This document shows, piece after piece, positions 1 to 15,074 of a stretch of 15,074 nucleotides of DNA (position 1 is its first letter; each line of letters starts with the position of its first letter). Both the position numbers and the translations under genes were made by a program. The notes under the pieces are model-generated. The model had not been told where the DNA came from. It saw nothing but the letters and a program-made list of their open reading frames with translations, and did no database searches. Source of the stretch: a bacterium (GTDB lineage Bacteria; Thermosulfidibacterota; Thermosulfidibacteria; Thermosulfidibacterales; Thermosulfidibacteraceae); contig JALVZS010000021.1 in NCBI GenBank assembly GCA_027022065.1, positions 1-15,074 on the forward strand. Reading direction: 5' to 3'.

Positions 1-50
1 GTGGTAAGACGGTGGGGGCTGGAGTAGTAACGGAGGTTATAGAGGATTAA
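1..50 (+). CDS. tuf: Elongation factor Tu, C-terminal end (partial, 5' end outside window)
   Basis: The frame opening at base 3 reads GKTVGAGVVTEVIED and stops at TAA 48-50. This is the characteristic last strand of EF-Tu domain III, where the family ends in a G-[RK]-T-V-G-x-G-V-V-T-x-I motif. EF-Tu is the GTPase that carries aminoacyl-tRNA to the ribosomal A site. Only about 15 residues are visible, so completeness cannot be judged. It lies 3 nt upstream of rpmG and is probably in the same transcript. A second tuf begins at 14984, so the genome has at least two copies unless the window wraps a very small repeat. Both Thr codons here are ACG, as in the other tuf fragment. Confidence 0.9.
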   Translation, partial: GKTVGAGVVTEVIED

Positions 51-53
51 GCC

Positions 54-203
54 ATGAGGGAGACGATAACCTTAGCTTGTACGGAGTGTAAGAGAAGAAA
101 TTATACAACAACCAAAAATAAAACGAAGCACCCGGAGCGTCTGGAGCTTAGAAAGTATTGCAAGTGGTGTAAAAAGCATACTATACATAAAGAAGTGAGG
201 TAG
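54..203 (+). CDS. rpmG: 50S ribosomal protein L33, zinc-binding form
   Basis: A 49-residue protein, the normal size for L33, starting [18 protein letters not shown]33 is a small protein of the large subunit near the E site. Two CxxC pairs (C9/C12 and C36/C39) form the zinc ribbon of the Zn-containing (C+) L33 type. The start is ATG 54, three bases after the tuf stop, with an AGAGGA ribosome binding site at 41-46 that lies inside the end of tuf, which implies translational coupling. The gene ends 4 nt before tRNA-Trp. The tuf-rpmG-trnW-secE-nusG order is widely conserved in bacteria and supports the call. Confidence 0.95.
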
Positions 204-207
204 GTGC

Positions 208-283
208 AGGCCGGTAGCTCAATTGGTAGAGCGCGGGACTCCAAATCCCGTGGTTGGGGGTTCGATTCCTCCCCGGCCTGCCA
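208..283 (+). tRNA. trnW: tRNA-Trp (anticodon CCA)
   Basis: A complete 76-nt cloverleaf. The acceptor stem is AGGCCGG (208-214) with CCGGCCT (273-279), a perfect 7 bp. The D arm is GCTC/GAGC (217-220, 229-232). The anticodon stem is CGGGA/TCCCG (234-238, 246-250) with loop CTCCAAA, placing anticodon CCA at 241-243. The T arm is GGGGG/CCTCC with loop TTCGATT (261-267). Discriminator G280 is followed by a genomically encoded CCA (281-283). It sits between rpmG and secE on the same strand with 4 nt and 24 nt spacers, so it is probably cut out of a longer mRNA by RNase P and 3' nucleases. A short T-rich stretch (284-288) follows, but no terminator hairpin. Confidence 0.98.
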
Positions 284-307
284 TTTTTCTGTTTATAGGG
301 GTTGGTC

Positions 308-502
308 ATGGCTAGTATTGAGCAGATAAAGGAGTTTCTTGAAGGAGCTAAGACAGAGTTTAAGCGAGTTGTTTTCCCCAATAAGCAACAAACTGTGGCA
401 GCCTCTATAGGGGTTATAAGCTTTACCATTTTTATAGCTATATACTTTGGAATACTTGACTTTTTGTTTTCACGTCTTATAGGTAAGATTCTTGCCTTTT
501 GA
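308..502 (+). CDS. secE: Preprotein translocase subunit SecE
   Basis: A 64-residue inner-membrane protein that clamps the SecY channel in the SecYEG translocon. The N-terminal amphipathic part (residues 1-30, with the family motif F-K-R-V-x-F-P-N-K-Q) lies on the cytoplasmic face. One hydrophobic membrane segment spans roughly residues 33-55. This is the short single-span SecE typical of most bacteria, not the three-span E. coli form. I chose ATG 308, preceded by AGGGG at 297-301 with a 6-nt spacer, over an in-frame TTG at 302 that would overlap that site. nusG follows after 21 nt, the usual pairing. Confidence 0.96.
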   Translation: MASIEQIKEFLEGAKTEFKRVVFPNKQQTVAASIGVISFTIFIAIYFGILDFLFSRLIGKILAF

Positions 503-523
503 GAAGATATTGCAGGTGGCGTA

Positions 524-1060
524 ATGGAAGGTGGTAAGCTTTTTCAGTGGTATATAGTGCATACCTACTCTGGATATGAGGAGAAGGTTAAAAAGAGTAT
601 TCTGGAAAGGGCTAAGGCTAAAGGGCTTGAGGATAGAATAGAGGAGATTGTTGTTCCCACAAGGGAGGTTGTGGAGCTTAAGAAGGGGAAGAGGGTTCAG
701 AGCAAGAAAAAGGTTTTTCCTGGTTATATACTTATAAAGATGATCCTGGATGATGACACCTGGTATTTGGTAAGGCGCACTCCTTGGGTTACAGGTTTTG
801 TTGGAACAGGGAATAAACCTACCCCCATACCTGAATCTGAAGTTCAGGAGGTTCTTGAGCGTATAGGGAGCAAGGGAGGGGTTGGCACAGAAGAGTTTAT
901 GAAGGGAGACTATGTTAAGGTAATAGATGGGCCCTTTGAAAACTTTACCGGTGTGGTTGATGAAGTTTATCCTGATAAGCAGAAATTGAGGGTACTTGTA
1001 AGCATATTTGGTAGATCTACACCTGTGGAGTTAGACTATCTGCAGGTGGAAAAGCTTTAG
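524..1060 (+). CDS. nusG: Transcription termination/antitermination factor NusG
   Basis: A 178-residue protein, the standard NusG length. The N-terminal NGN domain (about 1-115) binds the beta' clamp helices of RNA polymerase and contains W9-Y10-x-V-x-T, the family opening, and V64-F-P-G-Y. The C-terminal KOW domain (about 125-178, beginning G128-D-Y-V and including the G-P-F-x-x-F-x-G core) contacts Rho or ribosomal protein S10. There is no extra inserted domain. The start ATG 524 has AGGTGG at 514-519. It is followed by rplK after 18 nt. In the cell it links transcription elongation to translation and termination, and here it is co-encoded with the polymerase subunits it binds. Confidence 0.97.
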   Translation: MEGGKLFQWYIVHTYSGYEEKVKKSILERAKAKGLEDRIEEIVVPTREVVELKKGKRVQSKKKVFPGYILIKMILDDDTWYLVRRTPWVTGFVGTGNKPTPIPESEVQEVLERIGSKGGVGTEEFMKGDYVKVIDGPFENFTGVVDEVYPDKQKLRVLVSIFGRSTPVELDYLQVEKL

Positions 1061-1078
1061 TGTTGGAGGTCGTTTCAG

Positions 1079-1510
1079 ATGGCTAAGAAGAAGGTTATTG
1101 CCAAAATCAAGCTTCAGATACCAGGTGGACAGGCTTCTCCTTCACCTCCAGTTGGTCCTGCGCTGGGCCAGCATGGTGTGAATATAATGGCATTTTGTAA
1201 AGAGTTTAATGCCAGAACCAAGGACAAGCAGGGGATAATAATCCCCGTGGTTATAACTGTGTATGAGGACAGGTCTTTTGATTTTGTTACCAAAACTCCT
1301 CCTGCCTCTGTTCTTCTGAAGATGGCGGCGGGTGTTGCAAAGGGGGCCCATGATCCTCTCAGGGAGAAGGTGGGAAGGGTTACCAAATCGCAGGTTAGGG
1401 AGATTGCTCAGCAGAAGCTGCCTGATTTAAACACCGATGATATAGAAAAGGCGATGAAGATAATAGAGGGAACCGCCCGCAGTATGGGCATAGAGATAGT
1501 GGAGGACTGA
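1079..1510 (+). CDS. rplK: 50S ribosomal protein L11
   Basis: A 143-residue protein (family usually 141-142). The N-terminal domain carries the conserved [14 protein letters not shown] segment at about residues 23-36, with the prolines that contact thiostrepton at the GTPase-associated centre. The C-terminal domain (about 75-143) binds the 23S rRNA GTPase-centre RNA. L11 forms the base of the factor-binding stalk with L10 and L12, encoded just downstream. ATG 1079 has GGAGG at 1065-1069, a 9-nt spacer. rplA follows after 31 nt. Confidence 0.97.
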
Positions 1511-1519
1511 AAACTTACA

Positions 1520-1532
1520 CCACGCTTAGTGG
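1520..1532 (+). other. Small hairpin next to the rplA ribosome binding site
   Basis: CCAC (1520-1523), loop GCTTA, GTGG (1529-1532) form a 4-bp stem directly abutting GGGAGG (1531-1536), the rplA Shine-Dalgarno sequence, and sharing two G's with it. It could modulate rplA translation. L1 is known as the repressor of its own operon in other bacteria, but I cannot match this to a defined L1-binding site. The stem is short and may be chance. Confidence 0.25.
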
Positions 1533-1541
1533 GAGGCTGTT

Positions 1542-2261
1542 ATGCCGAAAAGAGGGAAAAAGTATTTAGAGGCCCTGAAGCTAGTTGACAGAAGAAAGAA
1601 GTATCCTCTTAAAGAAGCAATTGAGCTTGTAAAGAAGATGAGCGAGGTAGCCAAAAGAAACTTTGACGAGACGGTGGAGCTTGCGGCAAGGTTGGGTGTT
1701 GACCCTAGACACGCCGATCAAATGGTTAGAGGTGCAGTTACGCTTCCCCATGGGACAGGTAAGGAGGTAAAGGTTCTGGTGTTTGCCAAGGGAGAGAAGG
1801 CAAAAGAGGCGGAAGAGGCTGGCGCCGATTATGTAGGTGCTGAGGATCTTGTGCAAAAAATACAGAAAGAAGGATGGCTTGAGTTTGATAAAGCGGTTGC
1901 CACTCCTGATATGATGCCTTTGGTGGGGCGTCTTGGACGTATTCTTGGTCCCAGAGGGCTTATGCCCAATCCTAAGACAGGAACTGTCACCATGGATGTG
2001 GCCAAAGCTGTTCAGGAGCTTAAGAAGGGGAAGGTGGACTTTAGGGTTGATAGAGCGGGTAATATACATGTGCCCATAGGAAAGGTCTCTTTTGATACTG
2101 AGAAGCTCTATGAGAATGCAAAGGCAGTGCTTGAGGCGCTTTGGAGGGCTAAACCTGCCGCTGCAAAGGGTCAGTATTTTAGGAGTATAACTTTGTCTTC
2201 AACAATGGGACCGGGGGTAAAGGTAGACCCCAACCAGGCTCTGGAGGAGATTGGAAGGTAA
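1542..2261 (+). CDS. rplA: 50S ribosomal protein L1
   Basis: A 239-residue protein, slightly longer than the usual 229-235. It builds the L1 stalk near the E site, moves deacylated tRNA out, and in many bacteria represses translation of the rplKA mRNA. Family hallmarks visible: the N-terminal F-D-E-T-V-E-L-A-x-x-L-G-V-D-P segment, the G-T-G-K stretch ([12 protein letters not shown]), G[17 protein letters not shown] (about 140-159) and the C-terminal S-S-T-M-G-P-G-V signature. ATG 1542 has GGGAGG at 1531-1536. A 108-nt leader separates it from rplJ. Confidence 0.97.
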
Positions 2262-2369
2262 TCAGTCAAAGAAAGTGGGTACCCGCAAGGGTTTAATAGG
2301 GCCGGCCCTGCCTACCGAGACTGGTTGGAGGATATACCCCCGAGAAATCAGGAAAGGGGGTGATAGGTA
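2262..2369 (+). promoter_or_regulatory. L10 leader: autoregulatory RNA upstream of rplJ
   Basis: This 108-nt gap is at the position where bacteria carry the L10-leader RNA, bound by L10(L12)4 to repress rplJL. The sequence shows an enclosing stem GTGGGTA (2275-2281) with TGCCTAC (2309-2315), with two G-U pairs. Inside it are CCC-GCAA-GGG (2282-2291), a hairpin with a GNRA tetraloop, and AGGG-CCGG-CCCT (2298-2309). ACCGAGAC follows directly (2314-2321), resembling the CCGAGAC element of known L10 leaders. A final hairpin masks the rplJ ribosome binding site. Assignment rests on position and hand folding; a covariance-model search was not possible. Confidence 0.8.
2335..2362 (+). promoter_or_regulatory. 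Hairpin sequestering the rplJ Shine-Dalgarno sequence
   Basis: TACCCCC (2335-2341) pairs with GGGGGTG (2356-2362) around a 14-nt loop, 7 bp including a terminal U-G. The 3' arm is the core of AAGGGGGTGAT (2354-2364), which matches the full anti-Shine-Dalgarno complement AAGGAGGTGAT at 10 of 11 bases. When this stem forms, the rplJ start at 2370 would be blocked. This gives a plausible output switch for the upstream L10 leader. Confidence 0.6.
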
Positions 2370-2918
2370 TTGATACCGAGGGGACCTAAGACCAAAAGGC
2401 TGGAAGAGAAAAAACGGATTGTGGAGGATCTTAAGGAGAAGATTTCTTCTTCCAATGCCCAGATATTGGTTAATCTCTGTGGGATGACGGTTGAGGATAC
2501 CACACAGATAAGGAAGGAGCTTAAAAAGTTTGATGCCAGGGTCCAGGTGGTGAAGAATACCCTTGCGAAGATAGCCGCTGAGGATACTGTTTTGAAGCCT
2601 GTGGAGGAGCATTTTAGGGGTCCTACGGCCATTGTTTTCTGCTACGGGGACCCTGTGAGTGTGATAAAGTCCCTAGTTAAATACGAGAAGGATTTTGAGC
2701 ATTTTGATATCAAGGCAGGTGTTTTGGAGGGTAAGCCCCTTACCAAGGAGCAGTTGGTAGAAGTTTCTAAGCTGCCCTCTAGAGAGGTGCTTGTGGCCAA
2801 GGTGGTGGGTACCATTCAGGCCCCACTTTACGGCCTTGTTGGTGTACTTGCAGCTAACCTGCGCAACCTTATAGGCGTGCTTTACGCCATTAAACAGGTA
2901 AAAGAACAACAACAGTAA
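2370..2918 (+). CDS. rplJ: 50S ribosomal protein L10
   Basis: A 182-residue protein at the upper end of the L10 size range. The N-terminal globular domain (about 1-130) binds 23S rRNA with L11; the C-terminal helix (about 135-182) anchors the L7/L12 dimers. The family-typical N-V-K-N-T-L-A-like patch appears as V-V-K-N-T-L-A-K-I-A (about 59-68). The start codon appears to be TTG at 2370: no ATG or GTG is available in frame upstream, the first later one (GTG 2418) would remove conserved N-terminal residues, and an excellent ribosome binding site (2354-2364) sits 9 nt before it. A weak start codon and a masked binding site fit tight control. Confidence 0.95.
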   Translation: MIPRGPKTKRLEEKKRIVEDLKEKISSSNAQILVNLCGMTVEDTTQIRKELKKFDARVQVVKNTLAKIAAEDTVLKPVEEHFRGPTAIVFCYGDPVSVIKSLVKYEKDFEHFDIKAGVLEGKPLTKEQLVEVSKLPSREVLVAKVVGTIQAPLYGLVGVLAANLRNLIGVLYAIKQVKEQQQ

Positions 2919-2930
2919 GGAGGGAAAGAG

Positions 2931-3323
2931 ATGGCTGAGATAACAAAGGAAGATGTTATAAAGTTTATTGAGAATATGACCGTTCTTGAGCTTGCCGAGT
3001 TTGTTAAGGAACTTGAGGAGAAGTTTGGTGTTTCGGCTGCTGCTCCTGTAGCGGTAGCTGCTGCTCCTGGGGCCGCTGCCGCCGCTGCTGAAGCCCCTGC
3101 TGCTGAGGAGAAGACTTCCTTTGATGTTATTCTTTCCGAAGTGGGAGCTCAGAAGATTCAGGTTATCAAGGTGGTGCGTCAGATTACAGGTCTTGGTCTG
3201 AAGGAGGCCAAGGAGCTTGTTGAGAGTGCTCCCAAGCCCATTAAAGAAGGTGTTTCTAAAGAGGAGGCTGAGGAGATCAAGAAGAAGCTTGAGGAAGTCG
3301 GCGCCAAGGTTGAGATTAAGTAA
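2931..3323 (+). CDS. rplL: 50S ribosomal protein L7/L12
   Basis: A 130-residue stalk protein present in multiple copies per ribosome, recruiting EF-Tu, EF-G and other GTPases. The N-terminal dimerisation domain (1-34) binds the L10 helix. The hinge (about 35-60) is unusually Ala-rich, including a run of seven alanines at 48-53 and around. The C-terminal domain (61-130) has the conserved I-K-V-I-K-x-V-R-like and G-L-G-L-K-E-A-K-x-L-V-E segments that contact the G domain of factors. The rplJ stop is embedded in its ribosome binding site TAAGGAGG (2916-2923), a perfect match to the anti-Shine-Dalgarno, 7 nt before ATG, as expected for high L12 output. Confidence 0.97.
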
Positions 3324-3334
3324 AGGTTTTTGGG

Positions 3335-3362
3335 CCTTATAAAGAAATAATTTTCTTTAAGG
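3335..3362 (+). other. AT-rich hairpin after rplL, overlapping the next hairpin
   Basis: AAAGAAA (3341-3347) pairs with TTTCTTT (3352-3358) around TAAT; with a two-base AT bulge, CCTT (3335-3338) can extend the stem with AAGG (3359-3362). The last two G's also belong to the GC-rich stem that begins at 3361, so the extended forms of the two hairpins exclude each other. Confidence 0.4.
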
Positions 3363-3386
3363 GTAGGGGAGAAGTGTCCCCTACCC
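3361..3386 (+). terminator. Likely attenuator or RNA-processing hairpin between rplL and rpoB
   Basis: GGGTAGGGGA (3361-3370) pairs perfectly with TCCCCTACCC (3377-3386), a 10-bp stem with a 6-nt loop GAAGTG. CTTTTT comes only at 3394-3399, about 8 nt after the stem, so it is not a textbook intrinsic terminator. In E. coli the same rplL-rpoB gap holds a partial terminator and an RNase III site that lower rpoBC expression relative to the ribosomal proteins. A similar role here is an inference from position and structure. Confidence 0.55.
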
Positions 3387-3417
3387 GTATAAACTTTTTA
3401 AAGGGGTGGTTGTTGGG

Positions 3418-6400
3418 ATGGTGGAGATGGTGAGGAAGAATTTTGCAAGAATTAAAGAGGTTATTGATCCTCCCTTCCTTTTAGAGCTGCAGAAGAGGTC
3501 CTACAGCGAGTTTCTTCAGTTTGATGTTCCCTGGGACAAAAGGGAAAACAAAGGGCTTGAGGCAGTGTTCAGAAGCGTTTTCCCCATTGAGGACTACACT
3601 GGCACTGCCCGTTTGGAATATGTGGGTTATGAGATAGGCAAGTGGAGATGCAAGTGCGGTGAGTATAAGGGGCTTGGTGGCCCCAATATAGTTTGTGAAA
3701 GGTGCGGCGAGAAGCTCTTTTTCATCCCCAAGTACTCTCCTCAGGAGTGCAAGAAAAAGGGTCTCACCTATGGGGCACCTATAAGGGTTCTTCTTCGTCT
3801 TATAACCTACGATAGGGATGAAGTTACAGGTGAGAGGAGTGTAAGAGACATAAGGGAACAGAAAGTTTACCTTGGTGAGATCCCCCTCATGACTGACAAC
3901 TACACCTTTATTATAAACGGTGTTGAAAGGGTTGTGGTAAGCCAGCTCCACAGATCTCCTGGTGTTTCCTTTGAGGAGCTTAGAACGGCAAGTTCCTCAA
4001 GGCCCTCCATCTTGGGCAGGATAATTCCCTACAGGGGTTCGTGGCTAGACTTTGAGTATGACAGCAAGGGTTTGATGTACATAAGGATTGATAAGAGAAG
4101 AAGGTTTCTTATAAGCACTTTCCTTTTGGCTCTGGGCATGACTCAGGAGGAGATTTTAAGGACCTTCTATGACACAGAGAAGGTTTATGTCCTTGATGGG
4201 GGAAAGCGTTTTGAAAAGGAGCTTAAAGAGACCATCATCGGTCAGACTATAAACAGGGACATAGTGCATCCCGAGACGGGGGAGGTGATTGTAAGAGGGG
4301 GCAGAAAGATTACCAAGAACCACTACAGGAAGATGAAGAGACTAGGCCTTGATAGAATAGTTATCAGTGAGGAGGATCTCTGGGGCAAGCCTGTTGCAAC
4401 GGACATTCTGGATCCTGTTACAGGTGAGGTGATAATTGAGTGTAACGATCCCATAACCCCTGAGAAGCTGGAGGAGCTTAAGAGAAAGGTTGACAGCTTT
4501 GAGATACTGGTAGTTGAAGGGGATCTTGTTGATCCCTCTGTAAGGGAGGCCCTTAGACAGGATAAGGCTACAAATGAGGAAGAGGCCCTCAAAGAGATAT
4601 ACAAGAAGATGAGGCCTGGTGAGCCTCCTACCTATGAGGCGGCCAAAGAGTACTTCTACAGGCTTTTCTTTGATCCTGATAGGTTTGATCTTTCTGAAGT
4701 GGGTAGGCTTAAGATAAATGAAAAATTTGGATTTTCCGAAGAGGAGGCTCCTCTTTCCTGCAGGGTGCTGAGGAAGGAGGATATAATAGAGGTTGTTCGC
4801 TACATGATGAAGTTGAGAACTGGTCAAGCCCAGGTGGATGATGTGGATCATTTGGGCAACAAGAGGGTGAGGCCTGTTGGGGAGCTTCTTGAGAACCAGT
4901 TAAGAGCAGGGCTTTTAAGGATCCAGAAGACCATAAGGGAGAAGATGAGCATTGAAGATATAGAATCTATGATGCCCTATGAGCTTCTTTCTGCAAAGCC
5001 CTTTACTGCTATAGTAAAGAGCTTCTTTACAAGCGGGCAGCTTTCCCAGTTTATGGATCAGACCAATCCTCTTTCCGAGGTTACCCATAAGAGAAGGCTT
5101 TCTGCTTTAGGACCTGGCGGTCTCACCAGGGAGCGTGCAGGCTTTGAGGTTAGGGATGTCCATCCCTCTCACTACGGTAGGATCTGTCCCATTGAAACCC
5201 CAGAGGGACAGAACATTGGCTTGATAACCTCCCTTTCTGTTTACGCAAGGGTTAACAAGTACGGCTTTATTGAAACGCCTTACAGAAGGGTGAAGGATGG
5301 AAAGGTTACAGATGAGATAGTTTACCTCAGTGCCTTTGAGGAGGAGAGGTACACCATAGCGCAGGCCAACGCTCCAATAGATAAGGAGGGCAGGTTTACT
5401 AAAGATAGGATACAGGCGAGGAGGGGAGGAGAGTTTGTTACTGTTTCTCCGGATCAGATAGACTTTATGGATGTTTCTCCCAAACAGATAGTCAGTGTTT
5501 CTGCCTCCCTTATTCCTTTCCTGGAGCATGACGATGCTAACCGTGCCCTTATGGGATGCAACATGCAGCGTCAGGCGGTTCCCCTCATCAGGACGGAAGC
5601 TCCTCTTGTGGGAACGGGGATGGAGAAAAAGGTGGCTAAGGATTCCGGAATCCTCGTTGTGGCGAAGCGTTCTGGCAAGGTGGTGAGTGTTGATGCAACA
5701 AGGATTATCATAGCTGTAGACGAGGAAGAGGGCGGCGGGATAGATGTGTATTACCTCAGGAAGTTTGACCGCTCCAACCAGAATACCTGCTTCAACAACA
5801 AACCCATTGTGGAGAAGGGACAAAGGGTTAAGAAGGGAGATGTGATAGCAGATGGTCCCTCCACGGATAACGGAGAACTCTCCTTGGGAAAGAATGTGCT
5901 TGTAGCCTTTATGCCCTGGAGGGGATACAACTTTGAGGACGCTATTCTGGTTTCGGAAAGGCTGGTGAGGGATGACGTTTACACATCCATTCATATAGAG
6001 GAATTTGAGGTTGAGGCTAGAGACACTAAGCTGGGACCTGAGGAGATCACAAGGGACATACCCAATGTCAGCACTGAGGCACTCAAAAACCTGGATGAGT
6101 TTGGCATTGTCAGAATAGGGACCAAGGTAAAGCCTGGAGACATCCTTGTAGGTAAGGTTACTCCCAAGGGGGATACCTATCTAACTCCTGAGGAGAAGCT
6201 CATAAGGGTCATATTTGGTGAGAAGGCGAAGGATGTTAAGGATACCTCCCTAAGGGTGCCTCCTGGCGTTGAGGGATTTGTGATAGGGGTTGAGGTCTTC
6301 TCTAGGAAATCCTCAGAGCCTGATCCTATGAGGGAGAGGCAGATAGAGGAGGAAAGGGAGAGGATTGAGAAGGACTTTAAGGAGCAGACCGATGTGCTTT

Positions 6401-7593
6401 GGCAGATTGAGGCCGAAAAGCTGATCCCCATATTTGTGGGTAAAGCGGTTCAGCACGATATAGTTGACCCTAAAACAGGAGAGGTGCTTCTCAGGGAGGG
6501 GGAGCTTCTTACGGAAGAGGTGCTTAAGAAACTGCCGGGCTATTATATCAGGAACATAAAGGTTAAGCTGACCAAGGATGAGAAAGACAGGTTCAAGAAG
6601 GTGGTTGAGAAAACCAACCAGGAGATAGAAAAGCTAAGATTGCTTAGGGACGAGATGATAGATGCCCTTTACAGGCCCGATGAGCTACCTGCGGGAGTTC
6701 TGAAGCGCGTTAAGGTTTATGTGGCAACCAAGCGTAAGCTCCAGGTGGGCGACAAGATGGCGGGAAGACATGGAAACAAGGGCGTTGTTTCAAAGGTCCT
6801 TCCTATAGAGGACATGCCTTTCCTTGAGGATGGGACCCCTGTGGATATGGTGTTGAATCCCCTTGGTGTGCCCTCCCGTATGAACGTGGGACAGATCCTG
6901 GAAACCCATTTGGGATGGGCAGCCAAGGAGCTAGGAAAGAAGCTGGGGGAAATCCTGGAAAAATACAGGGAGCAGGCTGCAAAGCATGTGAGGGAGTTTT
7001 TGAAGGACATATACGGCGAGGAGCAGTCCAGGTGGATAGATGAGCTTGATGATGGAAGGATCATAGAGCTTGCTAGAAAGCTTTCTGAAAGGGGAATACC
7101 CATGTCTACCCCTGTTTTTGATGGGGCCAGCGAGGAGCAGATAAAAGATCTTCTGGAGAAGGCGGGGCTTCCCAGAACTGGTAGAGTAAAGCTCATTGAT
7201 GGAAGAACGGGTGAGCCCTTTGATCACACAGTTACCGTTGGCTACATGTACATGTTGAAGCTTCACCACCTTGTTGATGACAAGATCCACGCTAGGGCCA
7301 CAGGCCCATACTCCCTCATTACGCAACAGCCTCTGGGTGGAAAGGCCCACTTTGGCGGTCAGAGGCTTGGCGAGATGGAGGTTTGGGCCCTTGAGGCTCA
7401 CGGTGCTGCTTATACCCTGCAGGAGATGCTAACCGTAAAGTCCGATGATCTTGCTGGGAGAAACAAGATGTATCAGGAGATCATCAAGGGTCATCCTATA
7501 CTTAGACCTGGTATTCCAGAGTCTTTCAGGGTTCTGGTGAAGGAGCTTCAGGGGCTCTGTATTGATGTGGAAATAATAAAGAGAAAAAAGTAA
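3418..7593 (+). CDS. rpoB: DNA-directed RNA polymerase subunit beta
   Basis: RNA polymerase beta, 1391 residues from ATG 3418 (E. coli 1342). This start has AAGGGG at 3401-3406; GTG 3406 overlaps that site and ATG 3427 is a second candidate. The rifampicin pocket (L542-L564, matching E. coli 511-533) keeps the susceptible residues Q544, D547, H557, R560 and S562 but has Thr549 where E. coli has N518. The active-centre N-F-E840-D841 and the [10 protein letters not shown] loop (about 1113) are intact. E. coli-like insertions occur in lobe 2 and before K-V-Y-V-A-T-K-R. Unusual: residues 76-100 contain a zinc ribbon (C78, C80, C93, C96) inserted between the G-Y-E-I-G strand and the P-K-Y-S-P-Q-E-C segment, where E. 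coli has no extra sequence. rpoC follows after 14 nt. Confidence 0.98.
3643..3717 (+). other. Zinc-ribbon insertion in RpoB, resembling the RpoC N-terminal zinc ribbon
   Basis: Encodes W76 to L100 of RpoB with cysteines at 78, 80, 93 and 96 (CxC-x12-CxxC). The neighbouring RpoC has the same pattern at W69 with C71, C73, C86 and C89. Aligned without gaps, both share W, CxC-G, Y-K, I-V-C, and C-G: 11 of 25 residues identical. Synonymous positions differ (for example GGT/GGC, TAT/TAC, GTT/GTG), so it is not a recent copy. In other RpoB proteins that I recall, the flanking strands join directly. Confidence 0.85.
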
Positions 7594-7607
7594 AGGGGGG
7601 ATGATTC

Positions 7608-10600
7608 GTGGTTGAGGATATCCTTTCTATGTATGAATATCCGCAGGATCCCTCAGATATTGAGGCTGTTCGTATAAAGCTGGCTTCTCCTGAGAAGATA
7701 AGAGAGTGGTCGTATGGAGAGGTAAAAAAGCCTGAGACTATAAACTACAGAACATTCAAACCCGAAAAGGATGGACTTTTCTGCGCTCGTATATTTGGTC
7801 CCATAAAGGACTGGGAGTGCCTCTGTGGCAAGTACAAGAAGATAAAGCACAGAGGGATAGTGTGCGATAAGTGCGGGGTTGAGGTTACCACAAGTAAAGT
7901 AAGGCGTGTCCGTATGGGCCACATAGAGCTTGCAGCTCCTGTTGCCCATATCTGGTATGTTAAGGTGCTTCCCAGTAAGATCGGCACACTGCTGGGGCTT
8001 TCCGTTAAGGATCTTGAGAGGGTCATATACTATGAATCCTACATTGTTGTGGATCCTGGAGATACCCCTCTTAAGGAAAAGGAGATACTTTCAGAGGCCA
8101 GGTACAGGGTCTTAAGGGAGCAGTTTGGAGATGCCTTTGATGCCCGTATGGGGGCAGAGGCCATAAGGGACCTTCTTAAGAAGATAGACCTCTACGAGCT
8201 TGAGGATGAGCTTAAGCGCCAGCTCAAGAGCACCACTTCCTCTCAGGTTGCAAGGGACATTATAAAGAGATTGAGGCTCGTTCAGGCCTTCATTGAGTCT
8301 GGAAACAGGCCTGAGTGGATGATTCTGGAGGTTATTCCCGTTATACCCCCCGACCTCAGGCCACTTGTGCCTTTGGATGGGGGAAGGTTCGCCACATCCG
8401 ATCTCAACGATCTCTATAGAAGGGTTATTAACAGAAATAACAGGCTCAAAAGGCTGCTTGAGCTTAAAGCACCTGAAATTATCATCCGCAACGAGAAGAG
8501 GATGCTTCAGGAGGCTGTGGATGCCCTCTTTGATAATGGAAGAATGGCCCGTCCAATAAAGGGCTCCAATGGAAGGCCATTAAAGTCCCTTTCCGATACT
8601 CTTAGGGGTAAGCAGGGCAGGTTCAGGCAGAATCTTCTTGGAAAGAGGGTGGACTTCTCTGGCCGTTCGGTGATTGTGGTTGGGCCTGAGCTTAAGCTGA
8701 ATCAGTGTGGTTTGCCTAAGATAATGGCCTTGGAGCTCTTTAAGCCCTTTATCATGCACAAGCTCATATACGAAAAGCAGATTGCCCCCACCCTTAAGCG
8801 CGCAAGACAGCTTATAGAGCAGCAGGTGCCAGAAGTTTGGGATGCGCTGGATGAAGTGGTGAAGGAGCATCCTGTGCTTTTGAACAGGGCTCCAACGCTT
8901 CATAGACCATCCATTCAGGCCTTTGAGCCTATACTGGTGGAGGAAAAGGCCATTAAGATACATCCTCTCGTTTGTGTTCCCTACAACGCAGACTTTGATG
9001 GGGACCAAATGGCGGTGTTTGTACCCCTCTCTCTTGAGGCCCGTACGGAGTGCTACACTCAAATAATGGCCAATCACCATATTCTTTCTCCTGCTCATGG
9101 AAAGCCTTTGAACTATCCTACCCAAGATATGGTGTTGGGTCTTTACTACATCAGTAAGCCTAGGGCTAAGGCCAAGGGTGAGGGTAAGATTTTCTCTTCA
9201 CCTGAAGAGGTTAGGATTGCCTACGAGGAGGGGGCTGTTCACCTTCAGGCTAAGATAAAGGTGAGGATCAACGGTAAGTTCTACGATACCACTGTGGGCA
9301 GGGTGCTCTTCTATCTCATAGTGCCTCCTGTGATAAAGTTTGAAGAGGTTAACAAGGTTCTTACAAAGAAGGTGCTACAGAACTTGGTGTTTGAGGTGGT
9401 GAAGAGGGGCGGCAATACGGTGGCGGTAGAGTTCCTAGATAAACTTAAGGATATGGGCTTTGAATACGCTACCAAAGCCGGCATTTCCATTTCCATAGAT
9501 GACCTGGAGGTGCCTCCTACCAAGGATGAGATTGTGGAGGAGGCTTTCAAAGAGGTTATGAAGGTTGAGCAGGATCACTTTGAGGGAAGGATCACGAAGG
9601 GTGAGAGGTACAACAAAATAATTGCCATATGGGATGAGGCTACCCGCAAGGTGACGGAGGAGCTTGAGAAGCTTTTGAGGCGCAAGGATGAAGAGATAAT
9701 GAATGTCAATGGCTTCAATCCCGACGGTTCTCCAAAGGACTTCAACTCCATATTTATCATGGCGGATTCCGGTGCCCGTGGAGGTATGGCCCAGATCCGT
9801 CAGCTTGCTGGAATGAGGGGTCTTATGGCCAAGCCCTCTGGAGATATTATTGAGACGCCCATTACCTCCAACTTCAGAGAGGGGCTCTCTGTGCTTCAGT
9901 ACTTTGTGTCCACCCACGGTGCCAGAAAGGGACTTGCAGACACCGCTTTGAAGACCGCAAATGCCGGATACCTTACGAGAAAGCTTGTGGATGTGGCCCA
10001 CCATGAGATTGTGGTGGAAGAAGATTGCGGCACTGTTGAGGGCATTTATGTGGAGCCTCTGGTTGAGGCAGGAAAGACGCTTGAGAGCCTTAAGGATAGA
10101 ATAGTGGGTAGGGTGGCCCTTGAAGACATAAAGGACCCCTTTGCCGAAGAGGGAGAAGATGTCTATATCGTGAGGGCTGGTGAGATTATAGATGAGGAGA
10201 AGGCTAGAAGGATAGAGGAAGCAGGTATTAAGAGGGTTGGGGTGAGGTCTGTTCTTACCTGCGAGTCCCGCCACGGCGTTTGCCGTAAGTGCTACGGCTG
10301 GGATCTATCCAAGAGGAGGCTGGTGGATATAGGAGAACCTGTGGGTATAATAGCTGCCCAGTCCATTGGAGAGCCTGGAACCCAGCTTACCATGAGGACT
10401 TTCCACATAGGTGGAACTGCAACTATCGGTGAGATTTCCCATCATGAGGCCAAGACTCAGGGATTTGTGAAGTACCACAAGCTTAGAGTCATAACCAACA
10501 GAAACGGTGAGCTTGTGGCCATCAACCGTGATGGCGAGATTAAGATAATTGATGAGAAGGGCAAGGAGAAGGAGAGCTACCCTGTTGAGTATGGAGCAAT

Positions 10601-11939
10601 CCTTAAGGTTAAAGATGGTCAGGAGGTAAAGCCAGGGGATGTGCTTGTTACCTGGGATCCCTTCAACACGCTTTTCATTTCAGAGGTGGCCGGTAGGGTG
10701 AAGTTCGGTGATGTGATTGAAGGCGTTACCATGAAGGAAGAGCTGGATGAGACTACAGGTAAGATACACTGGGTCATCATAGAGAAGAAGGATGAGAAGC
10801 TTAACCCCAGGCTTTCCATAAAAGCAGCCTACAGAAAGGCGGATATCTCTGGTAAGGTGAAGTTTGAGAATGTGCAGACTAGAGAGTGGAACAACGAACT
10901 TGTGGTGGAGAACGAAGGAGCCAAGATAGTTATTGTGGGAGATGAGGGAGCCAAGGAGTATCACATCCCCAAAGGAGCTATTCTTAAGGTTAGGGATAGA
11001 GAAACGGTGGAGAAGGGGCAGGACCTTGCTTGGTGGGTGCCTGGTCCTGGTGACAGGGAGACCAAGACCATTGCACGTCAGCCCCTATCTGCTGGAACTT
11101 ACATAGTGGTTAAGGAAGGGGATGTGGTCTATCCCGGTGACATTATAGCGAAGATACCTAGAGAGATCGCTAAGACAAAGGATATTACAGGAGGTCTTCC
11201 CAAGGTTGTTCAGCTATTTGAGGCAAGAAGGCCTAAAGAGAAGGCCATAATATCTGAGATAAACGGCTTTGTTGAGGTTGGTAGTCCTTCAAGGGGTAAG
11301 ATAAAAGTGGTGGTTAAAGGAGAGGGTGAGACCAGGGAGTACTATGTTTCCCAGTCTCAGTCCCTCATAGTAAAGGACGGACACTATGTTAGAGCAGGAG
11401 ATAAGCTGGTTGAGGGAGATATTGATCCACACGATCTCCTTGAGGCCCTTAGTATCCAGAGGGTTAGGACATATCTGGTTGACGAGATACAGAAGATCTA
11501 CAGATCCCAAGGCGTTGATATCAACGACAAGCACATAGAGCTTATAGTGCGCCAGATGCTCAGGAAGGTGAGAATAGAGGATTCCGGTGATACCAAGTTC
11601 CTTCCCGGAGATGAGGTGGACAGGTTTGAGTTTGAGGATGAGAACAGGAGGGTAATTGCAGAGGGCGGAAAGCCTGCAACTGCAAAGCCCATACTTGTGG
11701 GTATAGCCAAGGCGGCAGTTCAGAGTGAGAGCTGGATTTCTGCGGCTTCCTTCCAGGAAACCACTAGGGTTCTTGCTGATGCTGCTGTTAAGGGCAAGAT
11801 AGATTATCTAAGGGGACTGAAGGAGAATGTGATTGTGGGAAGGCTTATCCCTGCGGGGACAGGGATGAGAAGGTATAGGGATACGGAAATAAAGGTGCCA
11901 TTACAGGTGCAAAAGCAGCAGGAGCATCTTGACAGCTAA
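7608..11939 (+). CDS. rpoC: DNA-directed RNA polymerase subunit beta'
   Basis: Catalytic beta' subunit, 1443 residues (E. coli 1407). GTG 7608 has GGGGGG at 7595-7600, a 7-nt spacer. N-terminal zinc ribbon: C71, C73, C86, C89. The active-site N-A-D-F-D-G-D motif is at 460-466 with Mg-binding D462, D464 and D466. The second zinc site is C807, C885, C892, C895. The trigger loop begins T928-M-R-T-F-H933-I-G-G and resumes at D1192-I-T-G-G-L-P; between them lies an SI3-type insertion of about 250 residues made of sandwich-barrel hybrid motifs, about 60 longer than in E. coli. The C-terminus (…[12 protein letters not shown]) ends in bases that also form a promoter -35 box for the next operon. The complex is assembled with RpoB, encoded 14 nt upstream. 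Confidence 0.98.
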
Positions 11940-11957
11940 TTAACGCATATATATATT
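11929..11957 (+). promoter_or_regulatory. Sigma-70-type promoter for rpsL-rpsG-fusA-tuf
   Basis: TTGACA at 11929-11934 (perfect -35), a 17-nt spacer, and TATATT at 11952-11957 (5 of 6 to TATAAT). The -35 lies in the last codons of rpoC and the -10 in the 56-nt gap. Transcription should start near 11964, giving a leader of about 32 nt to rpsL. No terminator precedes it, so the str genes probably receive both read-through and this internal promoter. Confidence 0.75.
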
Positions 11958-11962
11958 GCTAA

Positions 11963-11975
11963 GCCGCTTTGTGGC
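11963..11975 (+). other. Small hairpin at the predicted 5' end of the str transcript
   Basis: GCCGC (11963-11967), loop TTT, GTGGC (11971-11975) form a 5-bp stem with one G-U pair, 8 nt before the rpsL ribosome binding site. It would sit at or near the transcript start predicted from the promoter at 11929. It may be chance. Confidence 0.25.
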
Positions 11976-11995
11976 ATTTCCAGGGAGGTGAAGGT

Positions 11996-12370
11996 ATGCC
12001 AACTATAAATCAGTTGGTTAGGTACGGCAGGGAAAAGAAGAAAAAGAAGAGCTCAGCACCTGCTCTTCAGGGATGCCCTCAGAAGAGGGGGGTTTGTGTA
12101 AGGGTTTACACTGTGACGCCCAAGAAGCCTAACTCTGCTCTGCGTAAGGTTGCAAGGGTAAGGCTTACTAATGGCATAGAGGTAACGGCTTACATACCAG
12201 GTATAGGACACAATCTACAGGAGCACTCCATAGTGCTTGTGAGGGGAGGTCGTGTGAAGGATCTTCCTGGTGTTAGGTATCACATAATACGTGGTGCCTT
12301 GGACTGTGCCGGTGTTGAGGGCAGAAGGCAGTCCCGTTCCAAGTATGGAACCAAGAAACCTAAGAAGTAA
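11996..12370 (+). CDS. rpsL: 30S ribosomal protein S12
   Basis: A 124-residue decoding-centre protein, the normal length. T-P-K43-K-P-N-S-A-L-R-K and V-R-G-G-R-V-K88-D89-L-P-G-V-R-Y-H are intact, so the residues altered in streptomycin-resistant mutants (K43, K88, P91) are wild type. D89 is the site that RimO methylthiolates in some bacteria. ATG 11996 is preceded by GGGAGGTG (11983-11990). An in-frame TTG at 11969 gives an N-terminal extension unlike the family and is rejected. It is the first gene of the str segment, 12 nt before rpsG. Confidence 0.97.
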
Positions 12371-12853
<483 letters not shown>

Positions 12854-12871
12854 ATGGAGGTAAAAGGAGAG

Positions 12872-14962
12872 ATGGCTGACGAGGGAAGGATTCCCATAGA
12901 AAGGATACGCAATATCGGTTTGATGGCCCATATAGATGCGGGAAAGACCACAACCACTGAGCGTATCCTTTACTACACGGGTAGGACCCACAAGATAGGT
13001 GAGGTCCACGAAGGAACCGCCACGATGGACTGGATGGAGCAGGAGAAGGAGCGTGGTATCACCATTACCGCAGCTGCAACCACCTGCTTCTGGAAGAACC
13101 ACAGGATAAATATCATAGATACCCCTGGTCATGTAGACTTCACCGTGGAGGTGGAGCGCTCTTTAAGGGTGCTTGATGGCGCTATAACGGTGCTCTGTGC
13201 TGTGGGAGGTGTTGAGCCTCAGACAGAGACGGTTTGGCGTCAGGCGGATAAGTACCGCGTTCCCAGGATTGTGTTTGTCAACAAGATGGACAGGGTTGGG
13301 GCTGACTTCTTCAACGCTGTTAACATGATAGAGGAGAGGCTTGGAGCAAGGCCTCTTGTGCTACAGCTTCCCGTTGGGGCCGAAGCCGATTTCGTTGGGG
13401 TTGTGGATCTCATAGAGATGAACGCTATCATCTGGGAAGAGGAGACCCTTGGTGCCAAGTATCACTACGAGGAGATTCCCGAAAACCTAAAGGATCTGGC
13501 TTATGAGTACAGGGAAAAGCTGATAGAGACACTTGCTGATATAGATGAAACCATAATGGAAAAGTACCTTGAGGGTGAGGAGATAACCAAGGAAGAGATA
13601 AAAGCGGCCATAAGGAAGGGTACCATAAATCTTGATATATTCCCGGTGCTCTGTGGAGCTGCATTCAAGAACAAAGGAGTGCAGCCCCTTCTTGATGCCG
13701 TTGTGGATTACCTTCCCTCCCCTGTGGATCTGCCTCCTGTTAAGGGGATTAATCCAGAAACAGGGGAGGAAGAGGTGAGGCATCCCAGCGAGGACGAGCC
13801 CTTCTGTGCCATGGCGTTCAAGGTGATGGTGGATCCCTTTGTGGGACAGCTTGTCTACTTCAGGGTTTACTCTGGCAAGATGAGCACTGGAGATACCGTC
13901 CTTAACACCAGACGTGGCAAGAAGGAGAGAATAGGAAGGCTTTTACGCATGCACGCCAACAAGAGGGAGGAGATAAAAGAGGTAAGGGCTGGAGATATAG
14001 CAGCGGCGGTTGGTCTTAAGGATGTGATAACTGGAGATACCATATGTGATATTAAGCACCCTATAGTTCTTGAGTCTATGGAGTTCCCCGAGCCTGTTAT
14101 CTCTGTTGCCATAGAGCCCAAGACAAAGGCGGACCAGGACAAACTCGGAAACGCACTTTCTAAGCTTGCTCAGGAGGATCCCTCCTTCAGGGTAAAATAC
14201 GATGAGGAAACGGGTCAGACCTTGATATCTGGTATGGGAGAGCTACACCTGGAGATAATCGTTGACAGGCTTAGGAGGGAGTTTAAGGTTGATGCCAATG
14301 TGGGTAAACCCCATGTTGCATATAAAGAGACCATTAAAAAGCCTGCTAAGGCCGAAGGGAAGTACATTAAGCAGACCGGTGGTCGTGGTCAGTATGGACA
14401 TGTGGTTATAGAGATAGAGCCTTTGGAGCCTGGTAAAGGCTTTGTATTTGAAGATCACATTGTAGGTGGTGTGATTCCTAAGGAGTTTATACCTGCTGTG
14501 GAGAAGGGTATAAGGGAGGCTATGGAAACGGGTGTTCTTGCTGGCTATCCCATGGTGGATGTAAAGGTAAAGCTGGTAGATGGCTCTTACCATGAGGTTG
14601 ACTCTTCAGACCTTGCCTTTAAGATAGCTGCTTCCATGGCGTTTAAGGAGGCTGCGTCAAAGGCCAATCCAGTCCTTCTTGAGCCCATAATGAAGGTTGA
14701 GGTGATCGTGCCTGAAGAGTACATGGGAGAGGTCATAGGAGATCTCAACTCCAGGCGTGGAAAGATACAGAACATTGGAGAGAGGAAGAACGCAAAGGTC
14801 ATAGATGCCCTTGTGCCTCTGGCTGAGATGTTTGGATACGCTACGGTGCTTCGTTCCCTCACCCAGGGAAGGGGCACCTTTACCATGCAGTTCAGCCATT
14901 ATGAAGAGGTTCCTGCTAATATAGCTCAGGAGATAATAGGTAAAAGAAACAAGGCTGCGTAA
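12872..14962 (+). CDS. fusA: Elongation factor G
   Basis: A 696-residue translocation GTPase from ATG 12872. Nucleotide-binding motifs: G1 A19-H-I-D-A-G-K-T26, G2 R61-G-I-T-I-T with T64, G3 D83-T-P-G-H87, G4 N137-K-M-D140, G5 G262-A-A-F-K-N. Domains II to V follow in order; the domain IV region has the G-G-R-G-Q-Y-G-H segment and the C-terminus has the S-R-R-G-K-I domain V stretch. The length and motifs fit a standard EF-G, not the mitochondrial-type or tetracycline-protection relatives. An in-frame ATG at 12854, immediately after the rpsG stop, is an alternative, but GGAGGT (12857-12862) is 9 nt before 12872 and downstream of 12854, which favours 12872. tuf follows after 21 nt. Confidence 0.97.
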
Positions 14963-14983
14963 ATTTATAAAGGAGGTAACGAG

Positions 14984-15074
14984 ATGGGGAAGGCGAAATT
15001 TGAGAGGAAGAAGCCACACGTAAACATAGGGACGATAGGGCACGTAGATCATGGCAAGACGACGTTAACGGCGG
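14984..15074 (+). CDS. tuf: Elongation factor Tu, N-terminal part (partial, 3' end outside window)
   Basis: About 30 residues are visible: [20 protein letters not shown] then [10 protein letters not shown], containing the EF-Tu P-loop [11 protein letters not shown] 14984 follows a strong AAAGGAGGT site (14969-14977). EF-Tu delivers aminoacyl-tRNA and pairs with EF-G, encoded just upstream. It is the second tuf in the window. All four Thr codons are ACG and both complete Ala codons GCG, unlike the mixed usage in fusA. Confidence 0.95.

Follow-up and report, generated by a model that had tools for sequence, protein, structure and literature searches.

The RNA polymerase locus of a bacterium of the family Thermosulfidibacteraceae raises the question of why the beta subunit should carry, in its N-terminal region, a four-cysteine ribbon resembling the N-terminal zinc ribbon of the beta' subunit encoded immediately downstream. 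We analysed a window of 15,074 nucleotides (contig JALVZS010000021.1, positions 1 to 15,074) from G000, a draft genome of 1.57 Mb; the genes of the window run in the order secE-nusG-rplK-rplA-rplJ-rplL-rpoB-rpoC-rpsL-rpsG-fusA. The start of rpoB was taken as the ATG at 3418; the GTG at 3406, at which the mechanical open reading frame begins, is also possible. The relevant features are these:

3418..7593, + strand: rpoB, RNA polymerase beta subunit (open reading frame and Pfam Rpb2 domains)
3643..3726, + strand: 28-residue insertion in the protrusion (beta1) domain, RpoB residues 76-103 (length comparison across about 120 lineages)
3643..3717, + strand: putative zinc ribbon, RpoB residues 76-100, W-x-C-x-C-G-x-Y-...-C-x-x-C (sequence, conservation and profile matches to RpoC ribbons)
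3649..3657, + strand: first knuckle of the RpoB ribbon, Cys78-x-Cys80 (sequence; invariant in the CxC class)
3694..3705, + strand: second knuckle of the RpoB ribbon, Cys93-x-x-Cys96 (sequence; invariant in the CxC class)
7608..11939, + strand: rpoC, RNA polymerase beta' subunit (open reading frame and Pfam Rpb1 domains)
7812..7886, + strand: RpoC N-terminal zinc ribbon, residues 69-93 (second-best site in the genome for the RpoB-ribbon profile; hhalign 3e-13)

The RpoB ribbon has the pattern W-x-C-x-C-G-x11/12-C-x-x-C, with cysteine codons starting at 3649, 3655, 3694 and 3703. Both its position and the identity of its cysteine spacing to that of RpoC 69-93, as given in the first-pass annotation, were reproduced. 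The 11 residue matches between the two ribbons counted there also stand, although the aligned length is 26 residues and not 25. The feature lies within RpoB itself and not at the beta' N-terminal site that follows the motif IFGPxKD; the genome has its RpoC ribbon alongside, and the RpoC ribbon was intact wherever it was read. In a Pfam search the RpoB ribbon fell in no named family. Elsewhere in RpoB, the lobe region (residues about 280-390, window 4250-4600) holds repeats of the type DI-x-P-x-TGEV, and residues 286-315 give a significant but partial Pfam match to 7TM-HD extracellular (PF07697).

We surveyed the length of the insertion site in rpoB genes taken from about 120 genomes of a wide relative sample that appears to represent each bacterial phylum by one or two genomes; automatic anchoring left out sixteen rows, most of which were inspected by reading. 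Between shared anchors the lengths are bimodal. All scored ribbonless RpoB rows have 11 residues at the site (for example GYSLGEPKYSV), except one with 14, whereas ribbon-bearing RpoB has at least 39, with no intermediate lengths. The corresponding E. coli segment we take to be LGEPVFDVQEC. The insertion starts after a strand ending in YEIG and ends before the conserved PKY...EC helix, and it is therefore an outgrowth of the protrusion domain. The first-pass annotation had it interrupting the N-terminal protrusion region, which is correct with the boundaries refined to about 28 residues (76-103). The ribbon is absent from 103 of 139 full-length RpoB rows, in a sample that was deliberately rich in Aquificota. 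Thus, it is confirmed as an insertion present in a minority of bacterial phyla and absent from most RpoB.

In an AF2 model of the N-terminal 636 residues of RpoB, which aligns to E. coli beta 20-605, the pLDDT is about 90 through the ribbon. Residues 76-100 are confidently modelled as a ribbon, with two predicted cysteine knuckles and short strands (pLDDT 84-93). Judging by its sequence, this ribbon would bind zinc.

The ribbon is not special to the source organism. Among nine genomes of the window's small phylum a match was found in 9/9, with the full ribbon in eight and the ninth sequence ending mid-ribbon at a contig end; its conservation throughout the phylum excludes a chance occurrence. 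RpoB matches were found in 119 of 136 Aquificota genomes, and the ribbon is covered in nearly all of those matches. Two forms occur in Aquificota at the same RpoB site: the CxC form in the Desulfurobacteriia-type members and a CxxC...CxxC form with a longer loop in Aquificia. The CxC form is shared by the window's phylum and by a clade of nine sequences (L126-L130, L133, L134, L137 and L138), which has full support and apparently spans eight phyla; this distribution makes CxC look older than CxxC. L135 and L136 carry a divergent form of the ribbon.

Further remodelling is evident in other lineages. Two members of the nine-sequence clade, L133 and L134, have lost all four cysteines and retain the tryptophan and the EYxGLGG hairpin; the knob thus outlives its metal site. 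Cysteine-free ribbons occur in two genomes of one genus in a first phylum and in 15 of 15 readable genomes in a second (L266-L267, L274-L288), which shows that the metal is not always needed. Conversely, some lineages have a nested double ribbon, in which a second knuckle pair lies inside the loop of the first (L141, L144, L145, L304-L339, L342-L359). This arrangement was found in 6/6 genomes with a match in the phylum of G226 and in about 135 of 143 in the large phylum of G232, which is apparently Acidobacteriota-like, as well as in L145.

Several rows differ at this site or elsewhere in the gene. In the double-ribbon phylum, L348 and L360 have collapsed insertions with no metal site (YSIGNWDECGWGDEARGLV..., YTIGEKEGVTTPTF). 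L139 (G268) has a different cysteine-rich insertion, CKNCPQIKLRKKCLFDDCSFTEKEC, which occupies the same site and is not of the ribbon type. The rpoB open frames of L185, L207, L215, L229, L233 and L253 exceed 2,200 residues, stopped by the end of the stretch taken, and are consistent with putative rpoB-rpoC fusions. No ribbon-bearing RpoB was found in viral contigs, and the double ribbon was unmatched in plasmids; records labelled 'phage' matched only RpoB of the ribbonless type, apparently from bacterial DNA (alignments unread).

We then asked what the ribbon resembles. A profile built from RpoB ribbons alone (A2) found RpoB first and RpoC second in each of 14 genomes (RpoC E values 8e-9 to 8e-6), with any third site at 0.08 or worse; in the cysteine-free genome G287 the scores of the RpoB and RpoC sites were close. 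Against the PDB, the best 60 sequences were all RpoC-type (beta' or gamma) chains, with a best E value of 6.5e-6. By sequence profile, then, RpoC is the closest relative, and no better likeness to an unrelated zinc ribbon was seen. The reverse search with an RpoC profile, a check proposed in the first-pass annotation, placed RpoB second in 9 of the 10 genomes that have a CxC ribbon, and in eight of them RpoB stood well clear of all further sites. In the eight genomes whose ribbon is absent or of the CxxC form, nothing scored better than E 0.17. The likeness extends beyond the ligands. When all residues except those at the W, C and G positions of the ligand pattern were shuffled, each RpoB ribbon fitted the RpoC profile better than its shuffled versions (p 0.0002 to 0.0042), and a joint column permutation gave p 5e-5 for RpoB-RpoC likeness beyond the ligand pattern. 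By hhalign, RpoC aligns to the CxC RpoB ribbons at 3e-13 and to the CxxC form at 1e-5, and the two RpoB forms align to each other at 2e-19, sharing an LGG that RpoC lacks. These scores make the RpoC-like spacing look older and the CxxC form derived. The ribbon is real, ancient, confined to a minority of phyla and specifically and unexpectedly like that of RpoC.

This likeness could reflect descent from the RpoC ribbon or convergence, the two origins offered in the first-pass annotation. Under convergence, the starting point would have been either a generic zinc ribbon or a hairpin that grew in place and was stapled by cysteines, and the resemblance to RpoC would follow from what any minimal ribbon favours: CxCG knuckles, an aromatic residue close by and G-V-V-C. 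Fold comparison is compatible with this, as a model of the isolated 35-residue ribbon retrieves generic zinc ribbons (Foldseek, VIA-align; E near 1 or Z near 2), with RpoC among the matches and not preferred over the others. That Aquificia have another type of knuckle and another loop length at this site also shows that the motif is plastic, and several positions that hardly vary in the RpoC ribbons are different in the RpoB loop. However, convergence does not readily account for the rank of RpoC and the gap behind it in the 14 genomes and the PDB, for the reciprocal result with the RpoC profile, for the likeness outside the ligand positions or for the apparently greater age of the CxC form, and we consider it unlikely. 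The RpoB ribbon probably arose by duplication from rpoC, and the ribbon at RpoC 69-93 is likely its relative and source type. Copying is likelier than convergence but unproven, because the 26 to 28 residues that bear on descent carry little signal and the fold comparison does not single out RpoC.

We lean slightly towards a reading in which an ancient ribbon was duplicated from RpoC into rpoB and remodelled into a zinc-stapled docking or bracing knob on the protrusion. Most likely, the short N-terminal ribbon of RpoC would have been duplicated deep in bacterial evolution and come to sit in the protrusion (beta1) domain of RpoB, after a strand and ahead of the following helix. There a knob of two hairpins would be stapled to the protrusion by a single zinc ion. 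Inheritance, losses and remodelling would have followed, the last including the change from CxC to CxxC, the nesting of second ribbons and the loss of cysteines. A conserved, roughly neutral loop (E-Y/F-x-x-L-G-G) would have replaced the basic loop of RpoC, and the loop and edge of the knob probably form a rigid docking surface for a protein partner or a brace on a neighbouring polymerase element. The best-conserved non-ligand features of the RpoB ribbon are the W, the E-Y/F and the LGG. Other lineage-specific inserts in the core enzyme are already known as sites that host regulators.

The ribbon may instead bind nucleic acid, holding upstream DNA or exiting RNA as the RpoC ribbon does. Its profile likeness to RpoC is in keeping with this, as is its putative location near upstream DNA: when E. 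coli polymerase elongates, upstream DNA passes along the beta protrusion, with the protrusion/flap side of beta on one flank and the zipper, clamp helices and zinc-binding domain of beta' on the other (PMC11001881). However, the basic loop of RpoC (mean charge +4.7) is replaced in RpoB by a near-neutral one (+0.5 in the CxC form and -0.7 in the CxxC form). The missing basic loop makes a rigid docking knob likelier than nucleic-acid binding, which we regard as improbable, and the suggestion in the first-pass annotation of a metal-binding surface near the upstream DNA or the RNA:DNA hybrid is accordingly not favoured.

A further possibility is that the four cysteines, holding labile zinc or an iron-sulfur cluster, couple the polymerase to redox state. 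The wholesale loss of cysteines in two lineages that keep the hairpin is what might be expected had sensing become needless. Against this, the spacing and flanks are of the structural zinc ribbon type, the closest sequence relative is the RpoC ribbon, which is a structural zinc site, and no sensing partner or switch was seen, so that a redox or metal sensor is very improbable.

The immediate proximity of rpoC and the identical spacing might suggest that, in the source lineage, the ribbon was copied from that gene recently or more than once, or was subject to gene conversion by it. For recent events this is ruled out by a permutation of own against other RpoC, in which RpoB ribbons were no closer to the RpoC of their own genome than to other RpoC ribbons (p 0.57), and the sharing of the ribbon by distant lineages is at odds with it. 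Any copying was therefore ancient, in agreement with the old event proposed in the first-pass annotation.

The number of origins was addressed with an RpoB tree built without the insert columns, on which at least four changes are required to explain where the ribbon occurs. The window's phylum and Aquificota are grouped together (SH-aLRT 96), along with one long ribbonless row. A single clade of all single-ribbon rows was not rejected (AU p 0.43), whereas a single clade that adds the double-ribbon rows was weakly rejected (p 0.028, for a group named after the tree was seen). The weak rejection points to possibly several gains or transfers; one old gain with losses and a few gains or transfers are both compatible with the tree.

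Inserts of this class are known; a member akin to the RpoC ribbon seems undescribed. In the literature covered, which lay largely outside subscription journals and did not extend to the 2010 insert catalogue, we found no account of a zinc ribbon in RpoB or of an insert at its site, and the insertion is not among the indels listed in the passages considered of a review of RpoB signature indels. The ribbon sets apart a group of little-studied phyla in which the protrusion of the polymerase is unlike those of E. coli and Thermus. Tentatively, a beta' module may have been copied into beta early in bacterial evolution, so that one or two extra protrusion ribbons serve as a lineage-specific docking site in phyla including Aquificota and the Acidobacteriota-like phylum. 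If so, the passage of a metal ribbon from beta' to beta, with later nesting and, in places, loss of the metal, would be a rare exchange of a module between the two catalytic subunits.

Three known systems offer comparisons. With the RpoC N-terminal ribbon, the RpoB ribbon shares W/Y-x-C-x-C-G-x-Y/F, a stretch of 12 residues from the second cysteine to the third, C-x-x-C, G-V/I-V/I before the third cysteine and E-V after the fourth; unlike it, the RpoB ribbon lies in the other subunit and a different domain, has an LGG loop in place of the basic loop and is optional, sometimes nested and sometimes cysteine-free. With other small zinc ribbons (such as those of PolD, Nob1, Rpb12 and TFIIE-alpha) it shares two cysteine knuckles on beta hairpins and weak fold matches of the isolated ribbon, but the RpoB-ribbon profile finds none of these near the level of RpoC. 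Like the lineage-specific beta inserts of the Lane nomenclature, of which betai4, betai9 and betai11 are E. coli examples (PMC2939025), the RpoB ribbon sits between regions shared by all bacteria and occurs in only some lineages; it differs from the E. coli inserts in its small size, its metal-ribbon type and its site in the protrusion.
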